The notes under the pieces: generated by a model
The model's database searches: none
Told to the model about the DNA's origin: nothing
What the model saw: the letters and a program-made list of their open reading frames with translations, nothing else
Position numbers and translations under genes: made by a program
Shown: piece after piece, positions 42,084-50,183 of the stretch
Position numbering within the stretch: the stretch's first letter is position 1
Layout of the letters: every line of letters starts with the position of its first letter
Assembly: GCA_028554645.1 (NCBI GenBank)
Contig: JAQOOI010000020.1
Span: forward strand, 233,501 to 297,500
Direction: 5' to 3'
Length of the DNA stretch: 64,000 bases
Source: Omphalotus guepiniiformis
Taxonomy: Eukaryota; Basidiomycota; Agaricomycetes; Agaricales; Omphalotaceae

Positions 42084-44184
42084 TTACACCCTCCTAACAA
42101 AAACCCTAACACAAACACTCGCACCATTCTCATTCTCATACCCATCCCTTCCTCGGAGTCTAACGAATCTCCATACCCCTCCATCCCTATCCCCATCTGC
42201 GTACTCGCGGTCAAGGTCAAGATCCCCACCCGCACTGCCGCCTAAATCCAACCAATCAACCCTCCCACAAACCCACCCCACCTCCCTATCCTCACCAACC
42301 TCCGAAACTCTCACTCCGAGACGGAGGAATGCGAGTGGATCGGTTGGGTATGTCCAGTCGATTCGAGGGAGGGGAGGCAACGGCGTAGGTGAAGGCAACA
42401 GCGAAGGCGAAGGGGAGTTCTGAGGTGAACTTGAAGGGGAAGTTGGTGGGAGGGGTAGGAATAAGAGGTCGGAGGAAGTGGGGGACTCGGATGAAGTGGG
42501 GGACGCAGAGGAAGCGGAGGAAACGGAAGGGGTGGTAGGAACAACCGGAGAATCCCATGAGAAACAGTGTTCTTTGAGTTCGTGGTGGAGTTCGGCGTGG
42601 ATGTAGGTTTTTGTAGAGGGTTTGGTTGGTACTGCGTTATTGTTAGGTGAGGGGTGCCGGTGAGATCAAATACGAACAGGAGAAACAAAAAGACATCGAC
42701 TCACACGAAATCCCACCTAAAAACTCACAAACCAACCTAACCTCCCCTCCCCTTTCCCCTTCTCCCTTCTCACCCCCACCCCCACCCCCACCTTCCCCCT
42801 CCCCTCCCCCCTCCCCACCCCTCCCACCCCTCATCCACTGCGGCTTCTCAACCCACCCCCCACTCCCCCCAAACAACCCCTCCCAAACCACCCACCCCCG
42901 ATCCCACCTCTGCCAATTAACAGCAACAATCTGCGTTCCTATCCTCCAAAACCCCAGCGTATCAACATTCGAAGAATTTATCCTCGTTCCTTTGGGGTAT
43001 ACCCTCCTCAGGTGTTTTTGGGCGTTTTCGTGGAGCGGGGTCAGGGAAGGGAGGGTAGGGAGGAGGGAGAGGAGGGTTGGTTCGGAGATGTTTAGGAGGA
43101 TGTGGGGTGGGGTTAGGAGGGCTGTGTGTGTGGGGGAGGGGGTTAGTGAGATGAGAGGGTAGGAAGGTGGGTTTGAGGGGGGGGAGGGGGTATGGGGGAC
43201 GTACGTTCATCCAACCACTTTGTCGAAAAAGGTTTCATACTCCTAGCATAAAACCCCAACTCAGCCAACTCTTCCGAAATCTTCCCCCTTTCAACTTTCC
43301 CAACAAGTACCCGAGGTATATCTTCACCCGGAACTTCGGATTCCATCGTAGCAGGCGTATCAACCACGACTAGATTTTGTAACCCTTCTACTATGACTTT
43401 CTCTTCATCTTCTTCGATTCGATCGAAATCTTCTGGTGGGTAATATTCTACCATTAAGATGATTCGACCTCTTAATTCTCTTGGTGTGGGTTTTCTCCTT
43501 AGTTCCACATCATCATCCTTAATAACAAACCCCTCCTCCTCCCCCTCCTCCCCGCCGCTGGCACCACCCAACCTCCCAACAACCAACTTCCCACCCCAAA
43601 CCCTCCTCAACAACCCCACAAGTTCCCCCTGCCCCTCAACACCCACATGACACTCCAACGAAATAAACACAGGCCACGATTCCTCCCCCACCACATCACC
43701 AATAGCCACCGCCACATCTTCAAGTGGGATTGATGTCGATAGGGTGTACCCGTGGGTTACGATTAGTCCGTGAGTTGAGGGCCATACGTCAATTTCGATA
43801 CAACGGGCTGGGGAAGGGTGTGTTAGGACGTGGGTGTAGGATGTTGAGGATGAGTGGCCTAGGAGTTGGTGGCCTAGGAGGTAGGTGTTGTGTGAGGATC
43901 TGCGGAGGGAGGGGGGATTAGTTCGTTAGTTTGTTTTGGACCTTGGTAGGATTGGATTGGATTGGATTGGATTGGATTGGATTGGATTGGATTGGATTGG
44001 ATTGGATTGGATTGGATTGGATGTGGGATACGCACGATATAAAGTAATCTGTTATAGGTAATGTATCATCCACATCTGGTACTCTCACGAAAGGTGTTTC
44101 GAGGAGTTTTGGGATGGAGATACCTTGTAGAGTTAGGTAGGCGTGAATTGAAGGTGCGAGTCGGATGGTTTGTGGGTTGGTCAT
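42084..44184 (-). CDS. Phosphoinositide-specific phospholipase C (short fungal form)
   Basis: PI-PLC cleaves PIP2 to IP3 and diacylglycerol. The catalytic X domain is clear after splicing: YFISSSHNTYLLGHQL, CIEIDVWPS, THGYTLSTSIPL and WPVFISLECHV, supplying both catalytic His positions (SHNTYL and HGYT). The Y domain reads HLRRVYPKGTRINSSNVD, then TLGFWRIGTQIVAVNWQRWD, with WVEKPQWMR. A C2-like C-terminus (LAFLRLGVRVSEV; WRFVRLRGRDGYENENGASV) ends in CVRVFVRRV. There is no PH or EF-hand region: the protein starts MTNPQTIRLAPSIHAYL about 50 residues before the X domain, as in the short basidiomycete forms. The first intron carries a 14-unit pentanucleotide array. Acidic and Pro/Ser low-complexity runs interrupt the X-Y linker and the Y-C2 linker. 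Confidence 0.85.
43951..44020. repeat. (ATTGG)14 pentanucleotide microsatellite in PLC intron 1
   Basis: Fourteen uninterrupted copies of attgg (tccaa on the gene strand) lie inside the first PLC intron, between the YFIS-encoding donor and the SSHNTYL-encoding acceptor. A perfect array of this length is likely to vary between strains. Confidence 0.95.
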
Positions 44185-46126: not shown

Positions 46127-46658
46127 AATCGTGGCGTAACGCATAGCGCATAGTATCCTATATACTTAGTACCACCAGAGTCTTGCCCGCGTTCAATAAG
46201 GGTGCGATGGGTTGATAAAGTTTCATTCCTCCTCACGCATCCCACAAATCCCACAAATCCCACAAATAGAACAGGGAACAAGAAATCAAGCTTTCGATGT
46301 ATTAGCCTGCATCTGCGTCTGAACCTGAAGCCTGAAGCTTCGCCTGCATAACACTCATAACCGCATTCATATATCTCTCTTTCTTTGTATCGTAGAGTTT
46401 CGAGGTTCGTACGGATGTAATCGACTTTGGGATTGGGATTGGTGGTGTTTGATTGCTTGCTTGGGGTCGTGTCTAATGCAGCATATAGCGAGTTTGTAAG
46501 TAGGTAGGTGGTGGAAAGGAAAGGAAAGGAAAGGAAAAGTGCACGGAACACACGTACGTACTGATATTGACTAGAACATGTTCGGGATTACATAGCTTCC
46601 CAAGGACGTATAGAGAGTTTGTCAGGATGGGTTTATCTGGGGATTCCCAAAGAGTCAG
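46127..46658 (-). pseudogene. Partial prefoldin-5 copy, 3' half only, frameshifted
   Basis: This segment is collinear with 49589-50183 of the intact prefoldin-5 gene, in the same orientation. It keeps the 3' flank (tcgtggcgtaacgcatagc..., the tcccacaaa triplets, tcaagctttcgatgtatta), the last coding exon and part of the preceding one (matching [16 protein letters not shown]). [12 protein letters not shown] is still readable, but the frame then shifts (RYKEREIYECGYEC in place of [10 protein letters not shown]). A deletion removes residues in the LVPL block. The first exons and promoter are absent. It cannot make prefoldin 5. Confidence 0.85.
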
Positions 46659-47460: not shown

Positions 47461-49134
47461 ATGGATATATCTCCTGATCATGACCCTTCACAAAGTACGA
47501 TCAATTCCTTTCAATATTTTTTAACTTATGTTTAGTATATGCTACAGATGCTTCGAAAAATCATGAAGTCCCCCCTTTCAATTTGCCTTTTAAGACTCCC
47601 AGTAAGTATTTTTCCACATTTTGGCCTCTCTTCTCGATTCCTTATACCTGCTTTAGTCTGCATCTCGTGTTATCAAAATAGCATTGAATGCACTATAGCA
47701 CCAGATTGTCTTACTTGCGACTCATGCGTGAAGAAGAATATAGGCATGTATACGCCAGTCTCATGTTCACTCTTTAGTGGCTAAGCTAATGTTGTCTTTC
47801 GCAGAGTGTAGAGAATATCACTTCCGCGGTAAGTCGTCGTAACCCATTTCCTGTCATTTATTCATTTGTCACCTCTCAGTTGTTGAAAAAGATTCTCAAC
47901 GACGTACGCGCTGCTGGAACTGTATGTACACATTCTTTTATTTCGTTCTCTTCTTACTATTCACTGTTCCGCTTTTCAACAGCCTGCATTTCATGTCGCC
48001 AAAACAAGACTCGATGCAGAGGTTCAGATGGTTTTGCTTGCGACGCATGCATGGAGAAGAATATAGGTACGTATCTCGGTCTAGTACTAAGTACTGTGTG
48101 GCGGTTAATTCGGATGACTTGCTCTGAATCACAGAATGCAAATTCACAAAAGCGAGGGACCTTAAACCCAAAATTGTCAGAAAAAAACGTCTTCACGTTC
48201 ACATCCCCATTGGTATATCTGGTCTTCTCAATCTTTGGTCTCTTCTCAATCAATATCACTTTTCCCCGGCACCCGCTTTCAGCCTGCACTTCATGCCATG
48301 AAAGAAAGATTCGATGCACAGTTTCAGATGGTTTTGCTTGCAACTCATGCAAGAACAGGAATTTAGGTACGTAGCTCGGTCTAATACCGTGTGGCGAATA
48401 GTAATGATGATTTGCTCACAGAATGCAAATTCCCAAATCCTAGCCCCATTGGTGGTATATCTGGTCTTTTTAATCTTTGGTCTCTTCTTGATCAATATCT
48501 TTCCCCGCTATTAGCTTGCATTTCGTGCCGTCGAAGAAAGGTTCGATGCATAGTATCAGATGGTTTTGCTTGCGACTCATGTAAGAAGAGGAATTTAGGT
48601 ATGTATACTCGACGAGGTGTACGCTTTACTGTGGTCTGTGTGGCGCCGGCTAATGGCATTTTGATCACTTTGCAGTATGTAAATTTGAAGAGAAGAAATA
48701 CTATTCGTCGAACAATGAGGTATGAATGAATGGTATTTTATTAATAACAACAACAACTCATGTCCGAGTCGTTGTAGGTTGAAAGCCCTGTTTCCACTGC
48801 TTCAGAGTCGCTATCCGAGTCGTCGAACAGTGATCACGTAGCCTTCCCCCCGCCCGACGCTCAGACCAGTCTTGACTGGTCTACAATCTCTCAGGGAGAT
48901 GAAGCTACATCGATCACATCCTCCTCCGAGTCCTCGGAGTCGCCATCAATCCTAGTAGATGGATGCATTTTTAAAATATGGCAGCCCCCTCAGCTTCCTT
49001 CCGTTGGCACTTGCGAGTTTCCTTCAGCCTCTGGTGGTGGTGAAATAGCGATTGTACCTCTCTCAGTCTCGGCTGATTTGAATTGGTGGACAAGGTTCTC
49101 CTCTCCATCAATTTCAGAAGTTGACATATCGTAG
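47461..49134 (+). CDS. Protein with four tandem Zn(II)2Cys6 clusters
   Basis: Twelve exons (47461-47494, 47548-47601, 47657-47743, 47805-47828, 47880-47921, 47983-48066, 48135-48212, 48283-48366, 48422-48451, 48515-48598, 48676-48719, 48778-49134) total 1002 nt and stay open for 333 residues. Introns 1-10 are all phase 1. Four units each follow CX2CX6CX7-8CX2CX6C, the fungal binuclear zinc-cluster DNA-binding pattern. The X6 segments are YQNSIE, RQNKTR, HERKIR and RRRKVR. The sixth cysteine of each unit starts the next exon. Clusters 2-4 share SDGFAC; cluster 1 lacks basic X6 residues and so probably lacks normal DNA contacts. The linker after cluster 2 is basic (KIVRKKR). The C-terminus is Ser/acid-rich without a fungal transcription-factor middle domain. 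Donor 3 appears to be GC (gcatgt). A nuclear regulatory role is inferred from the clusters only. Confidence 0.8.
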
Positions 49135-49588: not shown

Positions 49589-50183
49589 AATCGTGGCGTA
49601 ACGCATAGCACATACGTAGTATCCTATATGGTACCACCAAAGTCTTGCCGCGTTCACTATGTAAGGGTGCGATGGGGTTGATAATGTTTCATTCATTCAT
49701 TGCCTGCCTCCTCACGAATCCCACAGATCCCACAGATCCCACAAATCCCACAAGTAGAACAGGAAACAGAACACAAAAAATCAAGCTTTCGATGTATTAC
49801 TCTGCGTCTGCGTCTGAACCTGAAGCTTCGCCTGCATAACACTAATAACAGCATTCATATTATCTCTCTTTCTCTGTATCGTATCTTCTAGAGTTTCGAG
49901 GTTTGTACGGATGTAGTCGACTTTGGATTGGTAGTGTTTGATTGCTTGGGGTCGTGTCTTTTGGGGTATATTATATTGCAGCAAACAGCGAGTTTGACAG
50001 CGAGTTTGTTAGTACCGCTGGTGGGTAGTGGGTGATGGGTTGTGGGGATCACGTACCTTTTGCACGAAATAACCCGTACCGACATCGACGAGGACGTGTT
50101 CGGGGTTACATAGTTTCCCGGGGACGTATAGAGAGTTTGTTAGTGGGACGAGGATGGGTTTATCTGGGGGGTCCCGAAGTCAG
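49589..50183 (-). repeat. Intact-gene copy of the segment duplicated at 46127-46658
   Basis: This is the 3' part and 3' flank of the prefoldin-5 gene, repeated in direct orientation about 3.5 kb to the left as a degenerate fragment. The two copies bracket the four-zinc-cluster gene. Differences include several small indels in both coding and flanking parts. Confidence 0.85.

Follow-up and report, generated by a model that had tools for sequence, protein, structure and literature searches.

The interval 47461-49134 of the window, by which we mean the whole 64,000-nucleotide stretch of Omphalotus guepiniiformis DNA that was analysed, is probably a real protein-coding gene one of a small family of Zn(II)2Cys6 regulators that lack a fungal_trans domain and evolve by birth and death. 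Proteins with Zn(II)2Cys6 clusters are a chief family of fungal regulators and are mostly seen as having one cluster per chain, often working as dimers. Our best reading of the sequence is that zinc-cluster regulators have arisen and decayed within the small family, and that the member in the window has reached four clusters. More than one cluster per chain also occurs elsewhere in this genome; the unusual part is that four clusters stand on one exon skeleton that is shared with a two-cluster sister and a probable one-cluster sister. The present analysis adds to the first-pass annotation of the window cluster exons that appear to have been copied in tandem along with some introns, the existence of two-cluster, probable one-cluster and decayed relatives, and unrelated genes of this genome with at least two clusters per chain (C20 and probably C16).

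One spliced frame with four cluster exons

The first-pass annotation had proposed one gene model in which four clusters follow one another and the frame is kept throughout, and rebuilding the model from the bases reproduced it exactly, with 12 exons, 1002 nt and 333 amino acids. Its parts are as follows (relatives are named by their contigs, C65, C75, C57 and C69, and are described below):

47461..47494, forward strand: exon 1, with the start codon, ending in phase 1; C65 and C75 have a similar first exon ending in phase 1, as does, judged by eye, the decayed copy on C69
47548..47601, forward strand: exon 2 (NASKNHEV..), phase 1-1, with an alternative acceptor at 47536
47657..47743, forward strand: exon 3, with the first five Cys of cluster 1, phase 1-1, without the basic residues of the recognition helix
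47744..47804, forward strand: intron 3, with a GC donor (GCATGT)
47805..47921, forward strand: linker 1, made of exons 4 and 5, both phase 1-1
47805-47828, forward strand: exon 4, with the sixth Cys of cluster 1, phase 1-1
47880-47921, forward strand: exon 5, the second part of linker 1, phase 1-1
47983..48066, forward strand: exon 6, cluster 2 (CISCRQNKTRC...), phase 1-1
48135..48212, forward strand: exon 7, with the sixth Cys of cluster 2 and a linker with the basic stretch KPKIVRKKRLH, phase 1-1
48283..48366, forward strand: exon 8, cluster 3 (CTSCHERKIRC...), phase 1-1
48422..48451, forward strand: exon 9, with the sixth Cys of cluster 3, phase 1-1
48515..48598, forward strand: exon 10, cluster 4 (CISCRRRKVRC...), the most canonical of the four, phase 1-1
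48676..48719, forward strand: exon 11, with the sixth Cys of cluster 4, phase 1 to 0, which is also the phase pattern of the final linker exons in C65 and C75
48778..49134, forward strand: exon 12, an acidic Ser-rich tail (SLDWSTI, ADLNWWTRF) with the stop codon TAG at 49132-49134; the end of this tail is found again in the C57/C69 copy

Three splice sites deserve comment. Use of the exon-2 acceptor at 47536 instead of 47548 gives a model of 1014 nt and 337 amino acids; we favour 47548 because C65, whose N-terminus is similar, reads NASEASAV at the same junction (..Q|NAS). Ten of the 11 introns are GT-AG, and the GC donor of intron 3, the only one, is needed because cluster 1 then gets the ..KNI|EC junction seen in the other units. 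The softest intron of the model is intron 9, whose donor GTGGTA is weak and is followed 3 nt further on by GTATAT. Since this intron measures 63 nt and is stop-free, its retention would stay in frame; the spacer between clusters 3 and 4 counts 9 residues in the model, 10 with the next donor and 30 if intron 9 is retained. By a loose pattern, a branch-point-like site is present in all introns except intron 4.

The introns between units are 51-77 nt long and all of one phase. With the units consecutive as well, we think it unlikely that the locus consists of four separate small genes or unrelated transcripts. Exons 2-10 form nine consecutive internal exons, each a multiple of 3 and of phase 1-1, and copying, loss or skipping of a cluster exon with its linker therefore keeps the frame. 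Exon skipping could thus yield isoforms with fewer clusters. It might even be that alternative splicing of these exons leaves one- or two-cluster proteins as the main products of the locus, the full four-cluster chain being rare or absent, given that any skip among exons 2-10 stays in frame. The sixth Cys of each cluster lies on its own linker exon, however, and only paired skips would give a good cluster; we judge this explanation quite improbable.

Three clear cluster matches and one borderline match

The 333-residue model contains four non-overlapping matches to the pattern CX2CX6CX5-12CX2CX6-8C, in the form CX2CX6CX7-8CX2CX6C, at residues 31-60, 82-110, 136-164 and 174-202, and the spacers from the sixth Cys of one cluster to the first of the next are 21, 25 and 9 residues. 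Against the whole protein, Pfam Zn_clus (PF00172) scores E 1.2e-17, with three stretches under the E threshold. Four hits to this profile had been expected; clusters 2, 3 and 4, searched singly, are clean matches (26.5, 30.9 and 30.3 bits), but cluster 1 is borderline: its 20.6 bits, divided between two stretches, fall just short of the cut-off of 21. Beyond Zn_clus, Pfam gives no match to the protein at E up to 0.1, and a search of NCBIfam returned 0 families. The absence of a fungal transcription-factor middle domain, also claimed earlier, was borne out: the Pfam search finds no Fungal_trans (PF04082) in the protein, and an exon-by-exon scan finds none on its contig, C21, against 65 matches elsewhere in the genome (a much-split domain could escape such a scan). 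Among solved structures the nearest is PUT3 (E 0.0018 with cluster 4, 0.0035 with the whole protein), and a profile built from six cluster units gave 0 matches to the PDB at E 0.01.

In regulators of the Gal4/PUT3 type, a single cluster goes with a coiled-coil element for dimerisation and, commonly but not universally, with a fungal_trans domain. The window gene shares with them the Cys spacing and, in clusters 2-4, a Lys four residues after the second Cys (C2+4). It differs in having four clusters, no fungal_trans match and, by eye, no obvious coiled coil after cluster 4. In Gal4 the CGG triplet is read by Lys18, which stands four residues after the second Cys, and we take the C2+4 lysine of clusters 2-4 to be its counterpart. 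Clusters 2 (CRQNKTRC), 3 (CHERKIRC) and 4 (CRRRKVRC) also have an Arg before the third Cys, and the C2+4 lysine is present in both C65 clusters (A and B) and in C75. Cluster 1 (CISCYQNSIEC) has Ser at C2+4 and no Arg before the third Cys. From the retained lysine and arginine and the comparison with Gal4 we therefore expect up to three DNA-reading clusters per chain; since cluster 1 is without the basic residues of the recognition helix, no more than three look able to read DNA in the manner of Gal4. The idea that all four clusters are equal CGG binders is too strong, as it is not supported for cluster 1.

The lack of a middle domain and of an obvious coiled coil by eye, together with a non-basic cluster 1, would also suit a chain whose clusters serve as a zinc-binding scaffold for protein contacts, or as a dominant-negative partner, instead of reading DNA. 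That clusters 2-4 keep both the Lys at C2+4 and the Arg before the third Cys speaks against such a role, as does the resemblance of the single-cluster C75 to an ordinary regulator (its tail judged by eye), and we hold it to be very improbable.

The last 131 residues count 19 D/E against 5 K/R and are 24% Ser, with SLDW and LNWW motifs. Acidic activation domains have features of this kind, and the acidic, Ser-rich tail looks like such a domain.

An open frame alone is moderate evidence

The frame preserved through the introns had been said to argue strongly for a real gene. With at most 11 introns allowed, each 40-80 nt long, and a minimum of 24 nt for internal exons, the longest spliced frame was 1374 nt on the gene's strand and 654 nt on the opposite strand. 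Among 1000 dinucleotide shuffles, 8 reached at least 1002 nt (longest 1125, median 411); with introns limited to 45-80 nt, the count was 0 of 40. Free choice of splice sites can yield frames in random DNA, and openness by itself is therefore moderate evidence: the frame is indeed kept, but 8 of 1000 shuffles do as well. A chance open frame is accordingly unlikely on these counts. In our reading, the case for a real gene is carried by the conserved cysteines and by the paralogues, kinship being stronger evidence than openness.

Relatives on a common exon skeleton

We searched the 42.5-Mb assembly, which has 80 contigs and, as fits an agaricomycete, 32 matches to DUF6533, a family typical of mushroom-forming fungi. 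One relative is on contig C65 (locus L048, positions 3151-2270, minus strand), an intact two-cluster gene of 167 amino acids in seven exons with junction phases 1/1/1/1/1/0. It shares with the window gene the first exon, N-terminus, layout and cluster type, and likewise has no Pfam domain other than its two Zn_clus stretches; it differs in its two clusters, its smaller length and its short tail.

An intact single-cluster gene on C75 (L055, 1844-3242; 366 amino acids, five exons, phases 1/1/1/0, one Pfam stretch) was picked from the genome-wide list of Pfam Zn_clus matches. It has the phase pattern of the window gene and the intron between the fifth and sixth Cys, and shares with C65 that intron, the exon phases and an MQTS start; it differs from the window gene in its single cluster and in its long tail, which has no match there. 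Short local matches tie it to the family of the window gene and C65 (tblastn 0.007, blastn 3.8e-4), and whole-protein searches in both directions linked it with neither C21 nor C65 at E up to 1. Kinship of C75 with the window gene and C65 is probable on these features. C75 was one of six loci inspected among those whose Pfam match ends near profile position 26-28; in these six the shared place and phase of the intron was seen by eye only in C75, and the loci on C61, C63 and C78 and the two on C22 were dropped as family members, the shared intron not being visible in them.

A decayed copy with stops and missing Cys lies on C57 and C69 (L047 and L046). By eye, it keeps the start, the second half of a cluster like that of unit 1, the end of the last unit and the tail end. 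The two contigs, of about 315 kb each, are 99.4% identical over 4561 bases, the 4.5 kb compared, and are therefore probably alleles; both haplotypes may be present in parts of the assembly, in which the window gene occurs once.

The common skeleton can be written as exon 1 (phase 1), exon 2, n repeats of a phase 1-1 cluster exon with its linker, and a tail (phase 0), with an intron just before the sixth Cys. Here n is 2 in C65, 4 in the window gene and 1 in C75, with kinship probable for the last. The linker is one exon throughout, except for linker 1 of the window gene, which is split in two.

Zinc clusters elsewhere in the genome

A genome-wide Pfam scan for Zn_clus, made exon by exon, gave 75 matches at E up to 10; sorted by hand, they represent at least 68 loci, at least 4 of them with more than one cluster within 2 kb, these counts being lower bounds. 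Two loci, on C20 and C16, share with the window gene the presence of more than one Zn_clus per chain (probably so in C16) and differ from it in having other cluster sequences and longer spacers and, in C16, a TEA domain match. The C20 locus (L049:3098-4126, minus strand) encodes a single chain with two canonical clusters separated by about 150 residues; an intron interrupts one of the two, and their sequence type differs from that of the cassette family. The C16 locus (L050) has three Zn_clus matches over about 1.2 kb and may be one gene or two. One open frame (L050:2483-3418) matches both the TEA domain (5e-11) and Zn_clus (4e-5), and two more Zn_clus matches lie within about 1.1 kb in another frame (L050:3270-4247); C16 is possibly a TEA plus zinc-cluster regulator.

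A survey of fungal dual-specificity transcription factors covers chains with two different DNA-binding domains (Shelest 2017, PMC5415576). Such factors resemble the window gene in having more than one DNA-binding domain and differ in that theirs are of different types; repeats of one domain type were not counted in Table 3 of that paper, and the pairing of TEA with a zinc cluster is absent from the same table (PMC5415576).

Zinc-cluster matches at C4:35985, C13:5002, C15:181233 and C1:2717 have the same or nearly the same score (30.1, 30.1, 30.1 and 28.2 bits); two lie no more than about 5 kb from the start of their contig, and the four are perhaps a repeated gene. A pattern scan of viral_contigs gave 2 pattern stretches and no relative.

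Probable growth of the array by copying of cluster exons

Units 2-4 of the gene form a tandem array:

47980..48619, forward strand: array of three tandem repeats (units 2-4), with spacing of 300 and 232 nt

The introns take part in the repeat. Identity reaches 90% (z 12.7) between the introns that precede units 3 and 4, 82% (z 8.7) between those within units 2 and 3, and 78% (z 8.5) between those ahead of the two C65 clusters (cA and cB); most of the remaining comparisons among introns of the gene give z of only 1.9-4.6. For the intron ahead of cluster 1, the best matches are the C65 introns (z 7.4 and 8.9). These values indicate that some flanking introns were copied along with the cluster exons. 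The linker exons show no clear likeness except between units 2 and 3 (z 4.7), and therefore either diverged or were not copied whole.

A tree of whole cassettes groups units 2, 3 and 4 together (93% support) and leaves both C65 units outside this clade, and the node joining unit 1 with units 2-4 has 68%; a tree of the units from coding sequence only is poorly supported (47-56%). The separation of the units 2-4 clade from the C65 units places at least the last two duplications in the window gene's own line, and the evidence suggests that the array grew by repeated copying of one phase 1-1 exon.

Surroundings of the gene

A neighbouring gene, on the minus strand, encodes what we take from its translation to be prefoldin subunit 5. 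A decayed partial copy of its 3' part lies at 46127-46652 and is 72% identical over 617 columns to 49589-50179. The copy is upstream of the four-cluster gene and about 3.5 kb from the intact prefoldin gene, with the four-cluster gene between the two. No remnant of a second copy of the four-cluster gene was found beside the broken prefoldin copy by tblastn of the masked window at E up to 1. A GGATT pentamer array of roughly 75 bases is present at 43929-44033. Pfam matched SAC3_GANP, Asp_Glu_race and DENND11 in a search of 10 of the 34 single-frame ORFs of at least 150 amino acids in the window, and the other seven had no match; these genes have no bearing on the four-cluster gene.

Constraint on the fold or drift of a young paralogue

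The six Cys columns are invariant in the seven units of the three intact genes, and at least 54 amino-acid changes fall in the other 26 columns. The corresponding P of about 1e-5 assumes an even spread of changes and is biased, the window units having been picked by their Cys pattern. In the four window units alone there are 27 changes, none in a Cys column (P 0.004). Neutral change was simulated from unit 4 in two sets of 2000 runs each; all six Cys survived in 48 runs when the divergence equalled that of unit 2 and in 176 when it equalled that of unit 3. Estimates of dN/dS between units lie at 0.30-0.81 in 18 of 21 pairs and at 0.99 (unit 2 with cB), 1.40 (units 1 and 4) and 1.93 (units 2 and 3) in the others; with very few synonymous changes, there are too few sites for these ratios to serve as proof of selection, and we rejected them in that role. 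A fair statement would be that constraint acts on the fold and is weak or not detectable elsewhere.

Such a pattern has to be weighed against a young paralogue that drifts under relaxed constraint, its array an open by-product of tandem duplication with little or no function, at an earlier stage of the decay seen in C57/C69. The recognition residues missing from cluster 1, the GC donor, the dN/dS above 1 in two within-gene pairs, the existence of the decayed relative and the position of the gene next to a broken prefoldin copy, that is, on duplicated ground, are all in line with drift. Yet all 24 cluster Cys are present, the model is open at both ends, and a neutrally changing sequence that had diverged this far would in most cases have lost a Cys; we regard drift as unlikely. 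A real gene of the birth-and-death family is still the best explanation; the points counted against it include the sub-cut-off cluster 1, the one GC donor, the one weak donor, the decayed C57/C69 relative, the weak selection signal between units, the less than firm kinship of C75, the low likeness of most other introns and linkers and the poor support of the coding-only tree.

A possible serial reader of DNA

If the gene works as its sequence features suggest, the protein would enter the nucleus by means of its basic linkers, and the stretch KPKIVRKKRLH in the linker between clusters 2 and 3 could be the nuclear signal. Clusters 2-4 would contact CGG-like triplets as a single chain, not as a coiled-coil dimer; clusters 3 and 4, which the model separates by 9 residues, would make the tightest pair. 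Cluster 1 may act as a structural or protein-contact module, and the acidic tail, with its Ser and aromatic residues, would recruit the transcription machinery. A broader and more doubtful proposal, which we put forward tentatively, is that the array does with Zn(II)2Cys6 clusters what poly-C2H2 proteins do with their fingers: copying of symmetrical exons would add DNA-reading modules, a monomer would read several CGG-like triplets serially, and the module number could be adjusted by splicing.

Members with one, two and four clusters on one exon skeleton, with kinship probable for the one-cluster member, would show how a domain can multiply inside a gene, and the family offers a direct test of whether the zinc cluster can act as a serial DNA reader.
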